Shown here: piece after piece, positions 37,220 to 64,000 of the stretch
Layout of the letters: every line of letters begins with the position of its first letter
Position numbering within the stretch: the first letter of the stretch is position 1
Assembly (NCBI RefSeq): GCF_000279145.1
Contig: NC_018178.1
Location: 2,685,800-2,749,799, forward strand
Reading direction: 5' to 3'
Length of the DNA stretch: 64,000 nt
From: Melioribacter roseus P3M-2
GTDB taxonomy: Bacteria > Bacteroidota > Ignavibacteria > Ignavibacteriales > Melioribacteraceae
Made by a program: the position numbers and the translations under genes
The notes under the pieces: model-generated
Told to the model about the DNA's origin: nothing
Databases searched by the model: none
What the model saw: only the letters and a program-made list of their open reading frames with translations

Positions 37220-39838
37220 ATGAAAAATGAAAAAGTACTATTCTTTTTATCGCTATTGTATTGCTTCCTATTTATTAATTATGAAAGCTATGGGCAATTA
37301 AAAGGAACAGTACAAGGAAAGGTTAGTTCTGAAGGGGAGGCTCTTCCTTACGCTAATGTCATAATACTTGGAACAAGCTATGGCGCTTCAACCGATGCCG
37401 AAGGCTATTATAAAATTAGCGGCATCCCGGTTGGCACATATAAAATACAAGCCAGGTATATAGGTTTTGAGGCAAAAGAAGTTACGGTCGAAATAAAGGC
37501 AAACAAAATTACTGAGATTAATTTTTCTCTTGTTCCTACTGTTCTGGAAGGTATGGAAGTTATAACTATAACTGGGCAGGCAAAAGGACAGGTAGAAGCG
37601 ATAAATCAACAACTTAATTCGAACACGATTGTTAATGTTGTGTCAAAAACGAAAATAGAAGAGCTTCCTGATGCAAACGCGGCAGAATCTGTCGGACGTC
37701 TGCCTGGAGTTTCGATTATTCGAAGCGGAGGCGAAGGAAATATGGTATCTATTAGAGGGTTGGAACCAAAATTTAATCTTATTACTGTAAACGGCGTAAG
37801 AATACCTTCCACAGAAAACGAAAATAGAAGCGTTGACCTCAGTATGTTCTCAGTAAATATGCTTGATGGAATTGAGTTAACAAAGGCAATAACGCCCGAT
37901 AGAGACGCGGACGCAGTAGGGGGGATTATTGATTTTAAGGTTAACAGGGTGCAGCAAGGGCTTGATAGAAAAATACAAGTTCAACAAGGCTATAATGGAC
38001 ATTCAAAAACTTTTTATCCTTTTAAAATTAATGGCGCCATAAGTAATCGTTACTTCGATAATTCGGTGGGAGCTTACCTTTATTTAAATTACGAACAGGT
38101 GGATAGAAGCGCTCATCAATTTACAGGAAATTATGATGTGCAAGGAACTCCGCTTCCGGGAGAGGAATTTGTGAAAAACCTTACGGTTACGAATTTTTCA
38201 TTAAGGGATGTGCGGTCTAAAGTTAAGCGCGTTGGGGCGACTCTAAACTTAGACTATTTACTCAGTAACGGTTCTATTATGTTAATGAATATTTTTAGTT
38301 ATCTAAATAACGATAAAATTACTTATTATGATGGCTATAATGTGTCTAATGTAAATCATACTTATCGACTTATGCATGATAATTATGATTTGAGTTTACT
38401 TACCAATTCTTTTGTCTTTGATTATGATTTACAATGGATAAAGTCGGAGGTGAAATTATCCCATTCTGTATCTCAAAGAGATAATCCCACCGACTATTAT
38501 GTAGAATTTCAAGAAAATTCGGCTTTTAGCGGGGACTGGGCTGAGCACATATATGATGGGCCGGCTATTTTGCAAAGATATGCTAGAAATAATTTGACTG
38601 AAACAGGCCTGAATACTTTGGTTAAGCAACCTTCAGAAAATTTGGAGAGAAATATCACTGGAGAAATTAATTTAACGTTGCCTTTTAACTTGGGAGACGC
38701 GATTTATGGCAAAGTTAAAACCGGCTCGAAATTTAGATACACAAATAAAAACGCAAATAGCAACTATTACAGATCTAACCCTGGCATTGCGGATTCATAT
38801 GACCCTACAAAAGGTATTGCAGGTGTGATTAATGCTTATCCTGATCGTACTTTTCCAATGACCTCCAACGGATTAATACAAATGCGTCCGTTTTGGGATT
38901 CAACTTTTAGTATAAGCTCTTTTATGAATAACAAGTATAATTTCGGCTACGCATTAAATAAAGATATTATTGAAGAATTATATAGAAGAGTTTCTAATAA
39001 TAGTTACTATTATTCACCGCGTGGCGATATTAATGACAATACAGTATATGAAAGGATATACGCTGGATATTTAATGTCCGTGATTAATCTAGGCTCAAAT
39101 ATTATGATACTTCCTGGCGTACGCTATGAGAAAGAGCTAAGTCATTATAAAGGGGCTTACGTAATTTATGAAGATACTGGATTAAGAGCCAATGAGAGTT
39201 CGAGGCGAGATTCACTACAAATTCGCAAGAATGAAAATTGGTTCCCGATGTTGCATCTAAGATTTAAAGCTAGCTCGTGGTTTGATGTTCGATTGGCTTT
39301 TACTAAAACTATTATCAGACCCGATTATCAATATCTCGTTCCAAAATATTTTGAAAATTCATTAGGGTTAAGCGTTATAAGAGGAAACCCTCAATTAAAA
39401 CCGGCAATTGCCCGTAATCTTGACTTAAGCCTTGCGTTCCATTCTAATGTTATAGGACTCTTCACTGTCTCGGCTTTTTACAAAGAAATAGAAAATATGT
39501 TCTATACAATATCGAGGCCGATAATTTCCAAAGATGACGCTCTTAATTTAGGCTTAACGTCTGATAAAAACGGTTTTACGTTGACTGATCCTATCAATAA
39601 TACTTCCAAAGCTTTCATAAGAGGTATTGAATTTGATTTGCAAACAAGACTTTGGTATCTCCCGGGATTATTAAATGGTATTGTCTTAAGTCTAAATTAC
39701 ACTACAATGAATTCAATAACTTACTATCCAAGAACACTACTGCTCCAGGAAAGACTAACTACGCCGCCTTGGTTTAGGATTACAAGAATTGATACAAGTC
39801 GTAAAGGGAGGATGCTTGACCAACCTAATGATGTTTGA
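37220..39838 (+). pseudogene. TonB-dependent outer-membrane receptor, C-terminus cut off by an IS element
   Basis: Receptor that would import oligouronides. Signal peptide, then a carboxypeptidase-regulatory-like domain (GTVQGKVSSEGEALPYANVI, residues about 30-110), plug domain (IEELPDANAAESVGRLPGVS, then SIRGLEPKFNLITVNGVRI) and most of the beta-barrel. It is of the TonB-dep_Rec type with the N-terminal extension, not a classical SusC, and no SusD lies next to it. The TGA stop at 39836-39838 is the terminal TGA of the inserted element. Removing the element and one GTT copy restores DQPNDV-LNLSLGYDYKN in frame and a 970-residue receptor. The truncated form lacks the last 98 residues, including the final strand needed for outer-membrane insertion. 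Confidence 0.9.
39833..39835. repeat. Target-site duplication, left copy (GTT)
   Basis: GTT directly before the left end of the IS3-family element, matching GTT directly after its right end. Three-base duplications are typical of this family. Confidence 0.8.
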
Positions 39839-39865
39839 TCTTTCCCCCAAAAAGTATACAATAAG

Positions 39866-40738
39866 TTAAGCAACTCTTTCTTTAATTTCTTCCTTATTTT
39901 TTTCTTCGAATTCAACCGGAGATAAATAACCCAAAGCTGAATGTAATCTCTGCCTGTTGTAAAATATTTCAATGTATCTAAATATACTTTGCCTGGCTTC
40001 GTCACGCGTTTCATATTTCTCAAAATTCACCAATTCGGTTTTCAATGTATGAAAAAACGATTCCGTAATTGCATTGTCATAACAATTGCCGCTCGAACTC
40101 ATCGATTGTTTCATCTGATAGCTTTTCAATTGTTCTCTGAATGATTTGCTCGTATACTGACTGCCTCTGTCACTGTGAAAAATTAACCCCGCCGGTGGAT
40201 TTCTATGAATTACGGCAATCCTTAAAGCTCTATTTATTATTTCAGCGCTCAATCTCTGACTTACCGACCATCCCACTATCTTTCTTGAGTAAATATCCAT
40301 TATCACTGCCAAATACAACCAGCCTTCTGATGTCCACAAATATGTTATATCGCTCGTCCAGACCTTATCTTTCTCTTCCGAACGAAAATTGCCTTTTACC
40401 AAATTTTCGCTCACCTCCGCTTTTCGATTCTGACGCGTCGTTGATTTGTATCTCTTCTTCATCTTGGCTCGTATATTGTGTAGCCTCATCAACCTTGCCA
40501 CTTTCTTCCTGTTTACAATTATTCCATTCCTTCTGATCGACGCCGTTATCCTTGGCGATCCATACCTGCCATCGCTTCTATTGTAATGAAATCTTATTAT
40601 CTCTAATAATTTCCGATCTTCTATCTCTCTACTACTTAATTTCCTTTTTAGCCAATTATAATACCCGGAGCGGCTGACCCGTAATACCCGGCACATTAAC
40701 TCTAAAGGATAATTCCTTCGGTTCTCTTTTATGAACAT
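39866..40738 (-). CDS. IS3-family transposase OrfB (DDE integrase core)
   Basis: 290 residues. N-terminal LMCRVLRVSRSGYYNW region, then rve/DDE core: first Asp in WTSDITYLWTSEGWLYLAV, second in LIFHSDRGSQYTS, and Glu in NAITESFFHTLKTELV. All catalytic residues are intact, so the element should be active. It is expressed as an OrfAB fusion through -1 frameshifting from orfA. The frame could also be opened at ATG 40738. Confidence 0.95.
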   Translation of the reverse strand: MFIKENRRNYPLELMCRVLRVSRSGYYNWLKRKLSSREIEDRKLLEIIRFHYNRSDGRYGSPRITASIRRNGIIVNRKKVARLMRLHNIRAKMKKRYKSTTRQNRKAEVSENLVKGNFRSEEKDKVWTSDITYLWTSEGWLYLAVIMDIYSRKIVGWSVSQRLSAEIINRALRIAVIHRNPPAGLIFHSDRGSQYTSKSFREQLKSYQMKQSMSSSGNCYDNAITESFFHTLKTELVNFEKYETRDEARQSIFRYIEIFYNRQRLHSALGYLSPVEFEEKNKEEIKERVA

Positions 40739-48421: not shown

Positions 48422-49834
48422 ATGAAAGACACATTTATCAAAGAAAATTTCCTGCTGAGCAATAAAACGGCGGAAATACTGTATCACGATCACGCTGCTA
48501 AGCAACCTATTATCGATTATCATTGCCACCTGCCTCCCGACGAAATAGCGTCGAATAAGAAGTTCGAAAATATTACGCAGGTTTGGCTGAACGGCGATCA
48601 TTATAAGTGGCGCGCTATGCGCACCAACGGAGTCGACGAAAAATATATTACAGGCGATTCGACCGATAAAGAAAAATTTATGAAATGGGCGGAAACAGTT
48701 CCCTATACAATTAAAAATCCTCTCTACCACTGGACTCATATGGAACTCAAAAGGCCGTTCGGAATTTCGGACAAATTACTCAATGCGGATACCGCCGAAG
48801 AAATCTGGAAAAAAACAGGCGAGCTTCTGGCTACCGACGAGTTCTCAACCCAGGGAATTATCCGTCAATGGAATGTCGAAATTATTTGTACAACGGACGA
48901 CCCGGTCGATTCGCTGGAATATCACAAAAAGATAAAAGAAAATCCGTTTGGAACTAAAGTTCTGCCTGCTTTTCGTCCCGATAAAGCCATGGCGGTAGAA
49001 AACACAACCGAATTTTTGAAATATCTGGCTAAACTCGAAGAAGCTTCCGGAGTATCGGTCAGCAGTTTCGATAACTTTTTGGAAGCTATTCGTAAACGAC
49101 ACGATTATTTCCACGAAAACGGATGCCGCCTTTCCGACCACGGCTTGGAATCGGCTTATGCGGAGGATTATACCGAATCGGAAATTAAATCGATATTCAA
49201 AAAACTTCTCAATAAGGAAAATCTTGACCATACGGAAATTCTGAAGTTCAAATCCGCAATGATGTATGAATTCGGAGTGATGGATTGGGAAAAAGGCTGG
49301 GTGCAGCAATTGCATCTCGGAGCTTTGAGGAACAACAATACCCGCATGTTCAGACAATTAGGACCCGATACCGGTTGGGATTCGATTGGCGATTTTGAAA
49401 TGGCTCGTCCGCTGGCTAAATATCTGGATAAACTCGACACGGAAAACAAATTGACCAAAACAATCCTTTATAATCTCAATCCTGCGGACAATGAACTCTT
49501 TGCCACAATGATCGGAAATTTCCAGGACGGAACCGTCCCGGGCAAAATGCAATACGGCAGCGCATGGTGGTTCCTCGATCAAAAAAGCGGTATGGAACGT
49601 CAGATCGACGCGCTCTCGAACATGGGACTTCTAAGCAGATTCGTCGGTATGTTAACCGATTCCCGCAGTTTTCTCTCTTATTCCAGGCACGACTATTTCA
49701 GAAGACTTCTCTGCGATATTCTGGGAAGAGAAATAGAAGCAGGACTCATTCCGAACGATCTGGAATTGGTCGGTAAAATGGTAGAAGATATTTCTTATAA
49801 TAACGCTAAAAACTATTTTGATTTCGGACAATAA
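48422..49834 (+). CDS. uxaC: Glucuronate isomerase
   Basis: Interconverts glucuronate with fructuronate and galacturonate with tagaturonate. 470 residues, with the N-terminal metal-site motif IIDYHCHLPPDEIA, TTDDPVDSLEYHK and LHLGALRNNNTRMF, then GTVPGKMQYGSAWWF and LTDSRSFLSYSRHDYFRR, all characteristic of UxaC. Start is 18 bp after the transporter gene; uxaE follows after 14 bp. Confidence 0.97.
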   Translation: MKDTFIKENFLLSNKTAEILYHDHAAKQPIIDYHCHLPPDEIASNKKFENITQVWLNGDHYKWRAMRTNGVDEKYITGDSTDKEKFMKWAETVPYTIKNPLYHWTHMELKRPFGISDKLLNADTAEEIWKKTGELLATDEFSTQGIIRQWNVEIICTTDDPVDSLEYHKKIKENPFGTKVLPAFRPDKAMAVENTTEFLKYLAKLEEASGVSVSSFDNFLEAIRKRHDYFHENGCRLSDHGLESAYAEDYTESEIKSIFKKLLNKENLDHTEILKFKSAMMYEFGVMDWEKGWVQQLHLGALRNNNTRMFRQLGPDTGWDSIGDFEMARPLAKYLDKLDTENKLTKTILYNLNPADNELFATMIGNFQDGTVPGKMQYGSAWWFLDQKSGMERQIDALSNMGLLSRFVGMLTDSRSFLSYSRHDYFRRLLCDILGREIEAGLIPNDLELVGKMVEDISYNNAKNYFDFGQ

Positions 49835-49848
49835 CAAAGGAGTTATCC

Positions 49849-51402
49849 ATGGAAATGCAGAAGCTATATGAGGAAGTGGAAAATAAGAATATTGTTAAAA
49901 ACGATTTGGTCGATCTCACGATAGGCGAGTCGTTAAAAATAAAAGCTTATCCTTTATCGGTATTAAAGAAAGACGATGCTTTCTTTTTTATCGGAAAAGA
50001 AAATTACGACAAATTTCTCTTTGTGATTTCGGCAGGCAAGGAAAACGGATTACTGAATGAATTCGAAGGAGAATTAATTGATGCCGGTAAAGATGTAACG
50101 GTAAAAAAATGCAATCTTTCTACAAAGAACAGAAAAGCAGTTCAAAAAATATTTCCGCACACAGCGCCGATAGTGTTGGGGCTGTGCAACTCTTTCGGCT
50201 GCGGCGACAGACTCGGCGTTGCAAATGCCGGTCACATCAGAGCGATTAAACAGAGCAATTTTCGACCTATTCTCGCTCAACAGTCAATAAGGGAATTGAC
50301 CAGAACCAACAGAACTCCTGACGACGTTATGGACGCCGCCGTATGGGCTGTTCTGCAGGAGGGATATAAAGACGGCTTCGGTTCGGACGCCGACCACCTC
50401 AAAACATTCGAGGATATCGATTTGATGCTCAATGCGGGATTTACGATGTTTACTTTCGACCCGAGCGAACACGTCGATAACGAAGCCGACAACTATTCCG
50501 AAGACCAATTAAAACAAAAATTGGGTGAAATCGACTGGAGCGGGCTGCAGGATACGAGCGCAGATGCGGCTAAGCGTTATGTCGACATGACTTTTAATAT
50601 TTCGGAACGACTCTCCCTTACAATTCAAGAATCAGATTTCTTGCGCGCTTACGCCAAATACGGAAATGCCATTGCTCATATTAAAAAGATGTACGACTAC
50701 CTTGCTTCCAAAGCAGATAAAGATACTTTCGAGATCGAAGTATCGGTCGACGAAACCGAATCCGTAACGTCGCCGTTCGAACATTTCTTCTTTGCCAACG
50801 AACTGAATCGTCTTGGCGTTAAATATGTAAGTCTCGCGCCGCGTTTTATCGGCGACTTCGAAAAAGGAATCGATTACAAAGGCGATTTGAATGTATTCAA
50901 AACCGAATACGAAAAGCATCTCGACATAACAAAATATTTCGGAAGTTATAAAATCAGTCTTCACTCCGGAAGCGATAAGTTCTCGGCTTACCGGGTAATC
51001 GGATCGTTAAAAGGCGCTTATACTCACGTTAAAACGGCGGGCACCAGTTATCTGGAAGCGTTGCGCGTTGTAGCGGCTAAAGAACCGGCGTTGTTCAGAG
51101 ATATTCTCGATTTCTGCCGCGACTTGTACGAAACCGAAAAGAGAAGTTATCACGTATCGGCGGACATCAACAAAGTAAAACCCGCAAACCAATATTCCGA
51201 CACTGAACTTATCGAACTCTTTAACCAAAATGATACAAGGCAGGTTTTGCACGTTACGTTCGGCAAGGTACTAACAGAAAAAGATTCGTCGGGTCATTTC
51301 CTGTTTAAGGATAAAATAATGAAGTGTTTGGTCGAAAATGAAGAATCGCATTATGAATTCCTCGAAAAGCATTTTCTAAAACATCTGGAGTGTTTCAAAT
51401 AA
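49849..51402 (+). CDS. uxaE: Tagaturonate/fructuronate epimerase UxaE
   Basis: 517 residues. UxaE, first described in Thermotoga, links galacturonate to glucuronate catabolism by epimerising tagaturonate to fructuronate. Recognised by VLGLCNSFGCGDRLGVANAG, RTPDDVMDAAVWAVLQEGY, GFTMFTFDPSEHVDNEAD and YFGSYKISLHSGSDKFSAYR. The context, directly between uxaC and eda, supports it and explains the absence of altronate-branch genes here. Two bases separate it from eda (51403 is the only spacer base). Confidence 0.92.
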   Translation: MEMQKLYEEVENKNIVKNDLVDLTIGESLKIKAYPLSVLKKDDAFFFIGKENYDKFLFVISAGKENGLLNEFEGELIDAGKDVTVKKCNLSTKNRKAVQKIFPHTAPIVLGLCNSFGCGDRLGVANAGHIRAIKQSNFRPILAQQSIRELTRTNRTPDDVMDAAVWAVLQEGYKDGFGSDADHLKTFEDIDLMLNAGFTMFTFDPSEHVDNEADNYSEDQLKQKLGEIDWSGLQDTSADAAKRYVDMTFNISERLSLTIQESDFLRAYAKYGNAIAHIKKMYDYLASKADKDTFEIEVSVDETESVTSPFEHFFFANELNRLGVKYVSLAPRFIGDFEKGIDYKGDLNVFKTEYEKHLDITKYFGSYKISLHSGSDKFSAYRVIGSLKGAYTHVKTAGTSYLEALRVVAAKEPALFRDILDFCRDLYETEKRSYHVSADINKVKPANQYSDTELIELFNQNDTRQVLHVTFGKVLTEKDSSGHFLFKDKIMKCLVENEESHYEFLEKHFLKHLECFK

Positions 51403-54090: not shown

Positions 54091-55365
54091 ATGATTTATT
54101 GCGCAGTCGGTTCAAAAGATTCGGAAATTAGTTTGAACCGGGCTAAAGAATATCTGTATGAATCGCTCGATAAAATCGGATCGAGAAAGAAAGTTCTCGC
54201 CATTCCGCCTGATTTTACGAGATATCATTCTAAGGCGGGCGAGTTAACTAATTTAATTTATGAATATTACGGAGATAAACTCAAGGATATTCTGCCAGCT
54301 TTGGGAACTCATGCCCCGATGTCCGAAAGCGAAATTAAAACTATGTTCGGGGAAATACCTCTAAAATTATTCCGAGTGCATCGATGGCGCGAGGATCTTG
54401 CTACTCTCGGTATAGTGCCTGAAGAATATGTCTATGAGGTCTCGGAAGGAAAAGTAAAATATTCATGGCCTGCACAGGTTAATAAATTATTAGTGGAAGG
54501 CAAACATGATTTAATCCTTTCCGTCGGACAGGTAGTGCCGCATGAAGTTATCGGAATGGCAAATTATAATAAAAACATTTTTGTGGGCACAGGCGGCAAG
54601 GAAGGAATCAACAAAAGTCATTTCCTGGGAGCAGCTTACGGAATGGAGAAAATAATGGGCAGGGCAGACAATCCCGTCCGGAAAGTGCTAAATTACGCTT
54701 CGGACAATTTCGCAAAAGATTTACCGATAGTCTATATTTTGACGGTTGTAGGAAAAAACGAGAATAACGAACTTGTGCTTAAAGGCTTGTTTATAGGCGA
54801 CGATTACGAATGTTTTAAAATGGCGGCCGAACTTTCCCTTCAGGTTAATTTTGAAATGCTCGATGCGCCGCTCGAAAAGGTGGTCGTATATCTCGACCCG
54901 CATGAATTTAAGAGCACATGGCTCGGCAACAAAAGCATTTACAGAACCAGAATGGCTATTGCAGACCGCGGAGAGTTGATTGTGCTTGCTCCCGGTCTGA
55001 AAGAATTCGGCGAGGACAAAGAAATCGACAGATTGATAAGAAAATACGGCTACAGAACTACTCCGGAAATTCTTAAATTTGTGGATGAAAACAGCGAACT
55101 TAAGGAAAATTTAAGCGCCGCTGCGCATCTGATTCACGGTTCGTCTGAAAACAGGTTTACTGTCAGATATTGTCCCGGCAATTTATCCAGAGAAGAAATT
55201 GAGAGCGTTAATTTTGAGTACGGCGACTTAAATGAAATGTTAAAAAAATATAATCCTGAAAAATTAACAGACGGTTTTAATACAATGCCCGACGGAGAAA
55301 AGATTTTCTTCATTTCGAATCCCGCTCTCGGTCTCTGGGCTTATAAAGGAAGATTTCAAAATTAA
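54091..55365 (+). CDS. LarA-superfamily nickel-pincer racemase/epimerase, candidate sugar-acid 2-epimerase
   Basis: 424-residue DUF2088/LarA-like protein. The residues for the nickel-pincer cofactor are all in place: H74 in LGTHAPMS, H151 in VVPHEVIG, K161 in ANYNKNIFVG (cofactor-linked Lys) and H177 in GINKSHFLG. LarA homologues include lactate, malate and hydroxyglutarate racemases and a D-gluconate 2-epimerase. Placed between kdgK and gnd in a hexuronate locus, a gluconate/mannonate epimerase is the best guess; lactate racemase is less likely. Cofactor synthesis genes (larB, larC, larE) are not in the window. Confidence 0.8.
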   Translation: MIYCAVGSKDSEISLNRAKEYLYESLDKIGSRKKVLAIPPDFTRYHSKAGELTNLIYEYYGDKLKDILPALGTHAPMSESEIKTMFGEIPLKLFRVHRWREDLATLGIVPEEYVYEVSEGKVKYSWPAQVNKLLVEGKHDLILSVGQVVPHEVIGMANYNKNIFVGTGGKEGINKSHFLGAAYGMEKIMGRADNPVRKVLNYASDNFAKDLPIVYILTVVGKNENNELVLKGLFIGDDYECFKMAAELSLQVNFEMLDAPLEKVVVYLDPHEFKSTWLGNKSIYRTRMAIADRGELIVLAPGLKEFGEDKEIDRLIRKYGYRTTPEILKFVDENSELKENLSAAAHLIHGSSENRFTVRYCPGNLSREEIESVNFEYGDLNEMLKKYNPEKLTDGFNTMPDGEKIFFISNPALGLWAYKGRFQN

Positions 55366-59134: not shown

Positions 59135-59160
59135 ATTTGAATATAAACAGTGAGGTTGAG

Positions 59161-59994
59161 ATGGAAGTACGTTACTCCCCCGATAAAAACGGTTTTAAGA
59201 AAATGACAACCGACGAACTTCGTCAGTCGTTTTTGATCGAAAGCCTTTTTGTCAAAAACGAAGTCCCGATGGTCTATTCCGACATCGACAGGTCGATTAC
59301 AGGCTCTGCGGTGCCTGCAGGAAAAGAACTTACGTTGACCGCGTCAAAAAAAGAAATGGCGGCTGAGTTCTTTTGCGAAAGGAGGGAAGTAGGAGTATTG
59401 AATATCGGCAACAAAGGAAAGATTATCCTCGACGGCGCAGAATACACGATGAATTTCAGAGACGCGCTTTATATTGGCAGAGGCACAAAAGAAGTGAAAT
59501 TTTTGAGCGACGACCCCGACAAACCCGCCGAGTTCTATTTTGTCAGTTATCCGGCGCATAAAGAATATCCTTCGAAGCATATCAAATACGAAGACGCAAT
59601 CCACAGGAATTTGGGCTCGATGGAATCGTCGAACAAGAGAACTATTCATCAATATATATTGCCGGAAATTTTGCCTACATGCCAGCTTGCAATGGGATTG
59701 ACCGAATTGGAAGAAGGATGCGTATGGAACACAATGCCGGCTCATACGCATCAGAGACGTTCCGAAGTGTATATGTATTTTAACTTGAGCGAAGACGATT
59801 TTGTTGTACATTTAATCGGCGATCCGAAAGAAACACGGCACTTGATAATACGAGACCGTCAGGCTGTCTTGTCGACCAGCTGGTCGCTCCACTCGGGCTG
59901 CGGAACCAGGAGTTATTCATTTATCTGGGCTATGGGCGGAGAAAATCAAGCCTTCGACGACATGGATCACATTCCAATGAAAGAATTAAGATAA
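59161..59994 (+). CDS. kduI: 5-dehydro-4-deoxy-D-glucuronate isomerase
   Basis: Isomerises the ring-opened unsaturated uronate (DKI) to 2,5-diketo-3-deoxygluconate. 277 residues from ATG 59161 (MEVRYSPDKN), which follows GAGGT and gives the family length; an in-frame TTG at 59137 is less likely. Metal ligands H195, H197 and E202 lie in PAHTHQRRSEVYMYF. It accepts the product released by GH88 after the lyases of the island. Followed by kduD after 24 bp. Confidence 0.97.
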   Translation: MEVRYSPDKNGFKKMTTDELRQSFLIESLFVKNEVPMVYSDIDRSITGSAVPAGKELTLTASKKEMAAEFFCERREVGVLNIGNKGKIILDGAEYTMNFRDALYIGRGTKEVKFLSDDPDKPAEFYFVSYPAHKEYPSKHIKYEDAIHRNLGSMESSNKRTIHQYILPEILPTCQLAMGLTELEEGCVWNTMPAHTHQRRSEVYMYFNLSEDDFVVHLIGDPKETRHLIIRDRQAVLSTSWSLHSGCGTRSYSFIWAMGGENQAFDDMDHIPMKELR

Positions 59995-60018: not shown

Positions 60019-60780
60019 ATGATTCTCGATAAATTCAAACTCGACGGTAAAATTGCATTGGTTACAGGCTCGAATCAGGGGATCGGTCAAAAATACGCTC
60101 AGGCTCTGGCTGAAGCCGGAGCGGATATTATCGGCGTCTCGTATGTAAATGATTTTACCGAAACCGAAAAGCTTGTAAAAGCCGCCGGACGGAATTTTAA
60201 ATCTTATGTAAGCGACTTTTCCGACAGAAAATCGCTCTACGGTTTTATTGAACAGGTCAAAAAAGATTTTCCCCGAATTGATATTCTTGTTAATAACGCG
60301 GGCACAATTTTACGCAAGCCGATAGCCGAACATCCGGACGAGTACTGGGATAAGGTTATCGAAGTTAACTTATCTGCGCAATTTATTTTGACGCGTGAAA
60401 TCGGCAGAGACATGGTCGAAAGAGGATACGGGAAAATCGTCTTTATTGCCTCGCTTTTGTCTTTCCAGGGTGGTATATTGGTACCCGGATATGCCGCATC
60501 GAAAGGAGGAGTTAAACAATTGACGATGGCGTTTGCCAACGAGTGGGCTTCGAAAGGCGTTACCGTAAACGCAATTGCTCCCGGATATATTGCAACTGAA
60601 AATACCCGACCGCTAAGGGAAGACCCCGTAAGAAACAAAGCCATTCAAGATAGAATTCCTGCAGGCAGATGGGGCCTTCCGGAGGATCTTATGGGCGCAA
60701 TGGTTTTCCTCTGCTCGGATGCTTCAAGTTATGTTAACGGTACTGTTCTGGTAGTAGACGGTGGTTGGATGGCTCGATAG
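60019..60780 (+). CDS. kduD: 2-deoxy-D-gluconate 3-dehydrogenase (SDR)
   Basis: Reduces 2,5-diketo-3-deoxygluconate to KDG with NAD(P)H. 253 residues: VTGSNQGIGQKYAQALAEAG, NNAGTILRKPI, catalytic GYAASKGGVKQL with Tyr and Lys, and the C-terminal NGTVLVVDGGWMAR. Ribosome site GGAGGTG precedes the ATG. With kduI, kdgK and eda it completes the route from unsaturated uronates to central metabolism. Confidence 0.96.
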   Translation: MILDKFKLDGKIALVTGSNQGIGQKYAQALAEAGADIIGVSYVNDFTETEKLVKAAGRNFKSYVSDFSDRKSLYGFIEQVKKDFPRIDILVNNAGTILRKPIAEHPDEYWDKVIEVNLSAQFILTREIGRDMVERGYGKIVFIASLLSFQGGILVPGYAASKGGVKQLTMAFANEWASKGVTVNAIAPGYIATENTRPLREDPVRNKAIQDRIPAGRWGLPEDLMGAMVFLCSDASSYVNGTVLVVDGGWMAR

Positions 60781-60809: not shown

Positions 60810-61826
60810 ATGAAAGGAATACTATTTGTTATTCCTTTCCTTATTTATTCTTGTTCTTTTTTTAGTAATATAGAGAAGGAAAGGGCGCTCGAAAAACCCG
60901 TTCTCCTGAAAACAATCGAATTGTATTATCCGAAGGAAGCTTTGGATAATAATATTCAGGGCAAAGTGGATTTAATGATTTTTGTCGATACTACGGGAAG
61001 CGTAAGCGACATTAAATTGATTAAATCCTCGGGCTTCAAGATTCTCGATACCGCCGCAATTAATTATTCGAGTAAGTTGAAATTCCTTCCCATTAAAGAA
61101 GACGGCAAAAAAGTTGCCCGATGGATTAAATGGAATGTAAATTACAAAATCGATGAAAAGCCGATGGAACCTGAAATGATTAATTTGTTCGTTTTCTACA
61201 AAGCGTCCGATTATGTGCACGAATCGACCGAAACGGCAATCGACATGTTTTGTAAACTTGCGGATAACTATAAATTCCGGATCGATTGCTCGGACGATTC
61301 CACGAAAATCAATACTGAAAATCTGAAAAATTACGACCTTCTGGTTTTTCTGAATACATCGGGCGACATTCTGGATGAAAAAGGGAAACGCGCTCTTATG
61401 GAATTCTCCAAAACGGGAAAGGGTTTCGTCGGTATTCATTCCGCAACCGCGACATTGGAAGACTGGGATTGGTACTGCAATTTTATAGGCGCTTGTTTTG
61501 AAGACCATCCGGAAATTCAGGATGCGGTTGTAAAAGTTGTAAATAAAAATCATCTTTCAACAAAACATCTGCCCGATACTTTTGTCTGGAAAGATGAGTG
61601 GTATAACTGGAAAAAATTACCCGAAAATGTTGAAGTTCTTGTTACAGTTGACGAAAAGACTTATAAAGGGGGAAAACACGGCGATTTTCACCCTGTCTCT
61701 TGGTGCAAAGAAATCGATAAATTCAGAATCTGGTATACCGCGTTGGGACATCTCCCGGAGCACTATACCGACCAGAATTTTATTAAACATATAGTAGGCG
61801 GAATTTATTGGGCTGCAAATAAATAG
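60810..61826 (+). CDS. Lipoprotein fusing a TonB C-terminal-like domain to a ThuA-like domain
   Basis: 338 residues from ATG 60810. A short lipoprotein signal ends at C15 (LIYSC). Residues about 35-125 match the TonB C-terminal/energy-transducer domain (YYPKEALDNNIQGKVDLMIF and KSSGFKILDTAAINYSSKLK). Residues about 130-338 match ThuA-like glutamine-amidotransferase-fold domains (FVGIHSATATLEDWDWYCNF, STKHLPDTFVWKDEWYNWKK, HPVSWCKEIDKFRIWYTALG). I know no described protein with this order. The ThuA domain is often linked to carbohydrate turnover; a surface or periplasmic sugar-related enzyme is likely. An upstream in-frame ATG (60765) overlaps kduD and is less likely. Confidence 0.82.
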   Translation: MKGILFVIPFLIYSCSFFSNIEKERALEKPVLLKTIELYYPKEALDNNIQGKVDLMIFVDTTGSVSDIKLIKSSGFKILDTAAINYSSKLKFLPIKEDGKKVARWIKWNVNYKIDEKPMEPEMINLFVFYKASDYVHESTETAIDMFCKLADNYKFRIDCSDDSTKINTENLKNYDLLVFLNTSGDILDEKGKRALMEFSKTGKGFVGIHSATATLEDWDWYCNFIGACFEDHPEIQDAVVKVVNKNHLSTKHLPDTFVWKDEWYNWKKLPENVEVLVTVDEKTYKGGKHGDFHPVSWCKEIDKFRIWYTALGHLPEHYTDQNFIKHIVGGIYWAANK

Positions 61827-61837
61827 GGGTTTTATTC

Positions 61838-62839
61838 ATGATTTACAGAGAAATTGGAAAATCCGGACTGAATGCCTCTGTAATAGCATTCGGCGCTTGG
61901 GCAATCGGCGGCTGGATGTGGGGCGGCAGCGACGAAAAAGATAGTATCGACGCCATTTATGCGGCTATCGACAACGGAATCAACTTGATCGATACCGCTC
62001 CCGCATACGGCTTCGGTTATTCCGAAGAAATCGTAGGCAAAGCCGTTAAAGGCAAACGGGATAAAGTTTTAATTGCTACCAAATGCGGTTTGAGATGGGA
62101 CCTGGAAAAAGGCGAGTTCTTTTTCTATACGACGGAAAAAGGAGCTGCGGACGAATCGACTCCCGGAGCGATGAAAATCTATAAATATCTTCATCCCGAA
62201 TCGATTCGTTATGAAATAGAGCAAAGCCTGAGAAGACTCCAGACCGATTATATCGATTTATACCAAACTCACTGGCAGGAATCGACAACTCCGATTGAAG
62301 ATACAATGGCGGAATTGACCAAATTAAAAGACGAAGGCAAAATAAGAGCCATCGGAGTATCTAATGCGACGGTCGAACAGATGAAAAGATACGGAGCGAT
62401 CGATTCCGACCAGGAAAAATATAATATGCTCCACAGAAAAATCGAAGAACAGGGCAATCTTGACTACTGTTACGAAAATAAGATTGCAGTTCTGGCATAC
62501 TCGCCGCTTTCGCAGGGCTTGTTGACCGGAAAAATTTCACCCGACAGAAAATACAACGAAGGCGACCTGAGACGCAATAATCCTCTGTTTACGCCGGAAA
62601 ATATCAATAAGGTGAATTCCATGCTGAAAGAATTCGAGCCGATTGCGGAAAAACACGAAGTGTCGGTAGCTCAGCTTGTTTGCGCCTGGACTTTTAACAG
62701 AAAAGGGATTACGCATTTGCTCTGCGGCGCAAGAAATCGTCGGCAGGTAATTGAGAATGCTGGAGCGGGTTCGGTTCAGTTAAGTCGGGAAGATATTGAT
62801 ACGATTAATTCTATTTATTCAAAATATTTTGAACAGTGA
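61838..62839 (+). CDS. Aldo/keto reductase
   Basis: 333-residue NADPH-dependent reductase. Catalytic tetrad in context: Asp in NLIDTAPAYGFG, Tyr in the same segment, Lys in VLIATKCGLRWD, and His in YIDLYQTHWQES. It resembles the YajO/Tas or IolS-like subfamily. In this locus it may reduce uronates or ketosugars derived from the polysaccharide; the substrate is not known. Its stop overlaps the next start (GTGA). Confidence 0.88.
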   Translation: MIYREIGKSGLNASVIAFGAWAIGGWMWGGSDEKDSIDAIYAAIDNGINLIDTAPAYGFGYSEEIVGKAVKGKRDKVLIATKCGLRWDLEKGEFFFYTTEKGAADESTPGAMKIYKYLHPESIRYEIEQSLRRLQTDYIDLYQTHWQESTTPIEDTMAELTKLKDEGKIRAIGVSNATVEQMKRYGAIDSDQEKYNMLHRKIEEQGNLDYCYENKIAVLAYSPLSQGLLTGKISPDRKYNEGDLRRNNPLFTPENINKVNSMLKEFEPIAEKHEVSVAQLVCAWTFNRKGITHLLCGARNRRQVIENAGAGSVQLSREDIDTINSIYSKYFEQ

Positions 62840-63828
62840 CAAAAATAAAAAAAGAAGAACTCAAAGATATATTTCGAATTAAATTATTAGAGCGCGGCTT
62901 TCCAGTTGATGACGCCGAGCTGTGCGCCGAAATTTTTACTGATAATACGGCTAGCGGCGTTTATTCCCACGGCATCAACAGATTTCCTCTTTTTATCGAG
63001 TATATCGACAAGGGGTTGATTAAGCCGGGAGCAAAGCCCGCTTTAAAAAAATCGTATTCGGCAGTCGAGCAATGGGACGGTAATATCGGTCCCGGTCCAT
63101 TGAACGCTTATGCAGTAACGCAAAGAGCAATGGAACTCGCCGAAGAATACGGCATCGGTTGTATTGCTTTGAGAAATACTAATCACTGGATGCGAGCGGG
63201 ATATTTCGGATGGATGGCGGCTGAAAAAGGATTCATCTTTATCTGCTGGACAAATACAATTCCTAATCTGCCGCCGTGGAACGCAAAGCAGGCGGCGACG
63301 GGCAATAACCCGATAGTAGTTGCCGTACCGCGTAAAGAGGGTCCGGTAGTGCTCGATATGGCGTTGTCTCAATTTTCATACGGTAAAATTGCCGATTATA
63401 TAAATAAAAACCGAGAACTCCCTTACTACGGCGGTTTCGACTCGCAGGGTAATTTGACCAAAGATCCCTCTGAAATAAATAAAACGCAGCGGGCTCTGCC
63501 AATAGGACTTTGGAAAGGAGCCGGATTATCGCTCCTGCTCGATTTAATTGCCTCGATTCTTGCCGAAGGCAATTCTACCGCCGATTTGTCGAAATCGGAA
63601 TATGATACGGGAATGTCCCAGGTATTTATAGCTATTAAGCCGGTATTCAACGATAAACTCGAATTGTATGTCGATGAAATTTTGAGATTCTATAAAAGCG
63701 CGGAACCAGTGTCCGTCGACGAAGTTATTTATTACCCTGGAGAAAGATCAGCGCGTTTCAAGAAAAAGTGCGAAGAAGAAGGAATTCCGGTTGAAGAGCA
63801 ATTATTGGATAGAATTAAAGCGTTATGA
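62836..63828 (+). CDS. Ldh2/YiaK-type dehydrogenase, probable 2,3-diketo-L-gulonate or ureidoglycolate-type reductase
   Basis: 330-residue member of the malate/L-lactate dehydrogenase-2 family. GVYSHGINRFPLFIEYIDKG, RNTNHWMRAGYFGWMAAEKG, TNTIPNLPPWNAKQAATGNN and ALPIGLWKGAGLSLLLDLIA match the 2,3-diketo-L-gulonate reductase (YiaK/DlgD) branch best. GTG start at 62836 overlaps the preceding stop by four bases. The context suggests reduction of a sugar-acid keto group. Confidence 0.82.
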   Translation: MTKIKKEELKDIFRIKLLERGFPVDDAELCAEIFTDNTASGVYSHGINRFPLFIEYIDKGLIKPGAKPALKKSYSAVEQWDGNIGPGPLNAYAVTQRAMELAEEYGIGCIALRNTNHWMRAGYFGWMAAEKGFIFICWTNTIPNLPPWNAKQAATGNNPIVVAVPRKEGPVVLDMALSQFSYGKIADYINKNRELPYYGGFDSQGNLTKDPSEINKTQRALPIGLWKGAGLSLLLDLIASILAEGNSTADLSKSEYDTGMSQVFIAIKPVFNDKLELYVDEILRFYKSAEPVSVDEVIYYPGERSARFKKKCEEEGIPVEEQLLDRIKAL

Positions 63829-64000
63829 AGATTTTTATAATTTATTTAATAATTACAGTGACTGGCGTTTTTGCCCAAAACAAAACGGATTTATTGATAG
63901 TAACCGGCGGTAAAGCGGTCGACCCTTCGTTTTACCGGATATTCGACGACAATAAAGAAATAAATTATAAAGCGATAGCCAAACCCGATGCGTTTAACTT
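63825..64000 (+). CDS. ThuA-like secreted protein, 3' end beyond the window
   Basis: ATG 63825 overlaps the preceding stop (ATGA) and opens a frame to the window end. The 58 visible residues show a signal peptide (IFIIYLIITVTGVFAQ) and DLLIVTGGKAVDPSFYRIFD, which matches the first strand of ThuA-type domains (VTGG-[HK]). A second ThuA-like gene directly after the ThuA-containing lipoprotein cluster strengthens the call, but only the start is visible. Confidence 0.65.
   Translation, partial: MKIFIIYLIITVTGVFAQNKTDLLIVTGGKAVDPSFYRIFDDNKEINYKAIAKPDAFN

Follow-up and report, generated by a model that had tools for sequence, protein, structure and literature searches.

The DNA analysed here (hereafter the window) is a stretch of 64,000 nucleotides from the chromosome of Melioribacter roseus. 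The genome (G000) is a finished single contig of 3,300,414 bp, equal in length to the published chromosome (PMC3534657). Near the downstream end of the window, a gene encodes a putative lipoprotein that joins a TonB_C domain to a ThuA domain (Table 1). It begins 29 bases after an SDR gene and ends 11 bases before an aldo/keto reductase gene. The genes on both sides belong to uronate metabolism, and a KDPG-type aldolase and PfkB are also encoded upstream. With UxaC, UxaE, the hexonate epimerase family member, KduI, the SDR, the aldo/keto reductase, and 3-dehydro-L-gulonate 2-dehydrogenase, they bear out the uronate catabolic cluster of the original prediction. The second ThuA-like gene, proposed to start at 63825, is likewise genuine. 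Its product is a divergent protein of 237 aa with a signal peptide and a PF06283 match (E 4e-23), and it lacks TonB_C. Beyond the window, GH43 and GH88 enzymes follow downstream, where inspection by eye also finds apparent pectate lyases, a TonB-dependent receptor, and a polygalacturonase. The fusion gene thus lies in a pectin/uronate locus. Growth of M. roseus on pectin was reported as not confirmed (PMC3534657).

Table 1. Features of the fusion gene and its neighbours; positions are those of the window.
Feature	Positions	Strand	Evidence
uxaC, uronate isomerase	48422..49834	+	PF02614
uxaE, tagaturonate epimerase	49849..51402	+	PF16257
Nickel-pincer 'putative hexonate epimerase' family, strong member	54091..55365	+	NF052594 682.8 bits, cut-off 500
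kduI, 5-dehydro-4-deoxy-D-glucuronate isomerase	59137..59994	+	NF002091 416 bits, cut-off 250
SDR, putative kduD by position and context	60019..60780	+	adh_short_C2
Fusion gene: lipoprotein signal, TonB_C, and ThuA, 338 aa	60810..61826	+	ORF, Pfam, NCBIfam, AlphaFold model
Predicted lipoprotein signal, residues 1-15, lipobox-like LIYS-C15	60810..60854	+	sequence
TonB_C domain, residues 38-114	60921..61151	+	PF03544 65 bits; fold match 6i97_D
ThuA domain, residues 127-335	61188..61814	+	PF06283 224.8 bits; fold match 4jqs/4pxy
Aldo/keto reductase	61838..62839	+	PF00248
3-dehydro-L-gulonate 2-dehydrogenase (Ldh_2)	62836..63828	+	NF009750 400.6 bits, cut-off 316
Second ThuA gene, start only (continues beyond the window)	63825..64000	+	PF06283

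Elsewhere in the window, positions 37220-40738 hold a TonB-dependent receptor gene with carboxypeptidase-regulatory and plug domains and no Pfam barrel match, which is probably interrupted. It ends near an IS3-type transposase frame on the opposite strand (39866-40738).

The fusion gene reads through 338 codons in one frame without a break, from an ATG to a stop that closes the gene. An alternative in-frame TTG at 60765 would overlap the 3' end of the upstream SDR gene, and the chains of relatives also start at the equivalent MK(x)-hydrophobic-Cys point. TonB_C had been proposed for residues 35-125. PF03544 matches residues 38-114, far above its cut-off (65 bits against 24.6; E 8e-18), and TIGR01352 (tonB_Cterm) matches as well (50.4 bits, cut-off 27.1). 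The ThuA match covers positions 3-209 of the 209 in PF06283 (cut-off 33.4; E 2e-66). Structure prediction recovers both folds. In the AlphaFold model, built from a 64-sequence alignment (mean pLDDT 91.4), the TonB_C part superposes on the TonB C-terminal domain (CTD) of the FoxA-TonB complex (6i97_D; rmsd 1.6, TMt 0.86; Foldseek), and the ThuA part matches 4jqs/4pxy and 4e5v (4jqs_A, E 1e-16, probability 1.00). An earlier model from three sequences, weak in the ThuA part (pLDDT 65.7), was set aside. Reading frame, profiles, and predicted fold therefore agree on a signal with C15, TonB_C, and ThuA in one chain.

The chain starts with a short hydrophobic stretch followed by Cys15 in a relaxed lipobox, and about 20 residues separate this cysteine from TonB_C. 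A cysteine after a relaxed lipobox occurs at positions 15-24 in all ten fusion proteins that carry the lipoprotein-TonB_C module, three of which fit the strict lipobox pattern. The control gave no relaxed lipobox with a cysteine in residues 10-27 in any of the 46 window ORFs of at least 200 aa. In Bacteroidota, an acidic stretch directly after the cysteine is the general export signal to the cell surface, a rule that may not hold in the Melioribacter lineage. None of the ten fusion proteins has such a stretch, which makes a periplasm-facing orientation likelier than surface export. The fusion protein is thus most likely a lipoprotein that faces the periplasm, putatively held by an anchor in the inner leaflet of the outer membrane.

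Intact TonB_C-ThuA fusions are present in 5 of 79 family genomes from four genera: M. roseus, G235 of the same genus, G029, G157, and G225. A sixth, diverged fusion occurs in another family of the same order (G611, L214:1501-2505), and several invariant residues of its ThuA appear replaced by eye. Neither the G225 nor the G611 fusion is located in a uronate cluster. In a phylum sample of 395 genomes, in which scoring was limited to the top candidates of each genome, 111 had strong matches, and among the matches listed the TonB_C part was covered only in the five family genomes. A search of genome contigs found TonB_C in the same chain in none of the best 80 ThuA relatives. Comparison of M. roseus with G235 gives a dN/dS of about 0.05 for each of the two domains, TonB_C and ThuA, which indicates purifying selection on both. 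That the fusion is a misassembly or annotation artefact is next to impossible, given the finished single-contig genome, the same architecture in five further genomes, and the low dN/dS. It is a rare, lineage-specific, conserved architecture of known domains. Searches of open-licence papers for ThuA and for TonB C-terminal domain architecture in lipoproteins found none that describes it.

The five family ThuA domains that are fused fall in one clade (100/95) together with the free ThuA of G236 and G058; that of G611 is left out. The best tree nests these two free domains among the fused ones, which form no clade of their own (one origin versus several, p-AU 0.068). TonB_C is not needed for ThuA function, since free ThuA of the same clade occurs without it. 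An aldo/keto reductase gene directly follows ThuA in G235, G157, and G236 as well.

Ordinarily, a TonB_C domain is taken to be the part of the TonB motor that contacts the receptor. The domain of the fusion protein has the fold of the TonB CTD (PF03544; 6i97_D) and its YP...G.V...SSG...LD pattern. However, it is N-terminal rather than C-terminal, and the protein lacks the inner-membrane anchor and the proline-rich, periplasm-spanning linker. A tree of 65 TonB_C domains, a short domain, has few columns and many unresolved forks. It puts the modules of both fusion types described here (ThuA and PL22) in one group (95/83, inside 96/83) together with order-specific lipoproteins and STN-TonB_C proteins, and the TonB CTD of M. 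roseus itself lies on the other side of the 96/83 split. The genome encodes an ExbB-ExbD-TonB set at 2.33 Mb (L057) and, at 0.17 Mb, another TonB, which has a long linker; no ExbB or ExbD gene adjoins the fusion gene. A TonB energy transducer was rejected on these grounds, namely the missing tether, the missing ExbB/ExbD neighbours, the separate branch, and the TonBs encoded elsewhere. MxcH-type receptors (NF038079) also carry an N-terminal TonB_C on an envelope protein. The match to this family (residues 30-121) is weak and below the cut-off, and MxcH is annotated as a TonB-dependent siderophore receptor, whereas the partner here is a soluble ThuA or PL22 domain.

The same module is found on a second, unrelated pectin protein. 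In G236, a lipoprotein with TonB_C and an oligogalacturonate lyase domain (PL22, PF14583; L155:3191-4642) occupies the slot that follows kduI and the SDR gene. It shares module and slot with the M. roseus protein but has, in the place of ThuA, a beta-propeller lyase as its catalytic part. A small transposase-like gene (L155:4885-5352) is inserted downstream, between this fusion and a free ThuA, which is followed by the same aldo/keto reductase. A second TonB_C-PL22 fusion (G209, L206:9546-11018) lies beside a 3-keto-disaccharide hydrolase, a GFO/IDH/MocA oxidoreductase, and a GH28-like gene. G236 and G209 represent two genera other than those with the ThuA fusion, and the PL22 histidine cluster is present in both. 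G157 has the reverse arrangement, with PL22 free and the module on ThuA. The modules of G225 (on ThuA) and G236 (on PL22) are sisters in the TonB_C tree (97/91). In G250 and G249 (L173:391-1797 and L177:1480-2255, the latter reaching the locus end), a lipoprotein with TonB_C continues into a diverged propeller that is related to PL22 along its length. The HPHPH histidine cluster appears lost in these by eye, and they may be binders or sensors. The presence of the module on ThuA in some genomes and on PL22 in others marks it as an exchangeable handle for pectin/uronate proteins. This exchangeable lipoprotein-TonB_C module, apparently a reusable handle by which pectin enzymes are held at the cell envelope, is the main new observation.

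TonB_C could have been acquired by chance with the lipoprotein signal and be an inert spacer, with ThuA working as any periplasmic ThuA would; the free ThuA proteins of G236 and G058 make do with simple signal peptides. However, purifying selection on TonB_C is as strong as on ThuA, and the domain is kept in six genomes and on two unrelated partner families. We therefore consider an inert TonB_C improbable.

To our knowledge, the ThuA family has no settled biochemistry. Across 64 ThuA domains from several phyla, H137, H210, W219, H233, E263, Y265, Y285, H294, W298, and H314 are invariant. The fused domain keeps these residues, and the model puts the histidines, tyrosines, and glutamate among them mostly beside the ends of strands, in the manner of an active site. 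By this retained histidine/glutamate set, the fused ThuA is of the active type at the level of sequence. Full-length domain, fold, and invariant residues are as in the family at large (PF06283; 4jqs, 4pxy, 4e5v, 1t0b). The N-terminal TonB_C and lipoprotein anchor are what the fusion adds, whereas other ThuA domains are free or fused to other partners (GSDH/cytochrome c/CBM6, or 3-keto-disaccharide hydrolase). Near single-domain ThuA genes, 3keto-disac_hyd, GFO_IDH_MocA, and Plug domains are found in 6 of 116 genes each, compared with at most 1 of 84 genes farther away, whose 25 most frequent families include none of the three. In addition, the literature connects thuAB operons with 3-keto-disaccharides (PMC4765114, citing Ampomah 2013). 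Taken together, fusion partners, neighbours, and the thuAB link make it more likely that ThuA acts on keto sugar acids than that it only binds. As ThuA ligands, uronates are no more than candidates, and the partners and neighbours of ThuA elsewhere point to oxidised (keto) sugars.

The main rival is glycan binding, in which ThuA captures pectin oligosaccharides without catalysis and TonB_C serves as a structural spacer. ThuA-like folds act in this way in the C-terminal domain of the levan surface glycan-binding protein (SGBP; PMC7618045) and form the carbohydrate-binding domain of Agd3 (PMC7229062). Like the M. roseus protein, the levan SGBP is a lipoprotein with a ThuA-like fold in a glycan locus, and both the anchor and the diverged G250/G249 propellers, which suggest that related fusions may bind, fit a binder. 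The levan SGBP is surface exposed and non-catalytic, with Ig-like N-terminal domains in the place of TonB_C. Against a binding role, Agd3 lacks residues conserved in ThuA-like proteins, the fused ThuA keeps the invariant set by its strand ends, and the PL22 of the close relatives G236 and G209 retains its histidine cluster. A binding role for the fused ThuA is thus rather unlikely, although more plausible than an inert module.

The reading we favour, with a probability of roughly 0.45, is an outer-membrane-anchored periplasmic lipoprotein in which TonB_C docks a partner and ThuA acts on keto or unsaturated sugar acids. Lipobox and lack of an acidic stretch would place the anchor in the inner leaflet of the outer membrane, and the TonB_C fold, some 20 residues past it, would sit at the membrane face. 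Its edge strand may pair with a peptide from a partner protein in the periplasm, for example the TonB box or the STN region of a TonB-dependent receptor. The substrates of ThuA would be sugar acids from pectin breakdown, oxidised (keto) or unsaturated, and the products may pass to KduI/KduD, the aldo/keto reductase, and 3-dehydro-L-gulonate dehydrogenase. The lipoprotein-TonB_C handle sits on ThuA in some genomes and on oligogalacturonate lyase in others. The original prediction that the fusion tethers a carbohydrate-modifying enzyme near TonB-dependent receptors holds in part. The envelope tether of a sugar-acting protein is supported by the lipoprotein signal and by the module on a pectin lyase. 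Only the fold suggests proximity to receptors, and this TonB_C branches apart from the organism's own TonB.

The docking partner would be a TonB-dependent receptor or an STN/FecR-type protein. The latter is as possible as the former because several TonB_C relatives occur in ECF-sigma/FecR operons. These operons also raise a signalling role, with the fusion as a periplasmic sensor, in which TonB_C senses a ligand-loaded ThuA or PL22 domain, contacts FecR/STN-type regulators, and controls pectin genes. Close TonB_C relatives lie in operons with the gene order ECF sigma, FecR, TonB_C lipoprotein, and (STN-)TonB_C protein, and they fall in the same tree clade as the fused modules. However, a sigma or FecR gene adjoins none of the ThuA or PL22 fusions examined, and the fused partners look like enzymes. 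Signalling is therefore about as improbable as an inert TonB_C.

A broader extension of docking is also doubtful, on a par with glycan binding. TonB_C lipoproteins might form an order-wide, portable docking tag that holds pectin enzymes (ThuA, PL22) at the periplasmic mouth or STN domain of TonB-dependent transporters, coupled to or competing with TonB. If so, polysaccharide-uptake machinery would have a periplasmic underside. The TonB_C fold is here parted from its motor, lipid-anchored, and set ahead of two unrelated pectin proteins. Should it dock to receptors or to their signalling domains, enzymes could thereby be positioned where the transporter opens inwards, at its exit, and the fusion would offer a direct route into ThuA biochemistry, which is so far undefined.

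Further TonB_C lipoproteins were seen in related genomes. In G238, one of 283 aa adjoins a GH88 gene (L145:1480-2331, L209:9374-10225), with no FecR or sigma genes alongside. A full Pfam run on L208 (5943-9195) revealed an operon-like set of an ECF sigma factor, a FecR protein, a TonB_C lipoprotein, and a barrel-less protein with STN and TonB_C. The C-terminal part of this lipoprotein, of about 160 aa, has no Pfam match. By eye or by partial Pfam runs, similar sets are present in L207, L210, L211, L212, L213, and L215. Their gene content suggests a signalling relay at the cell surface that lacks a receptor barrel.
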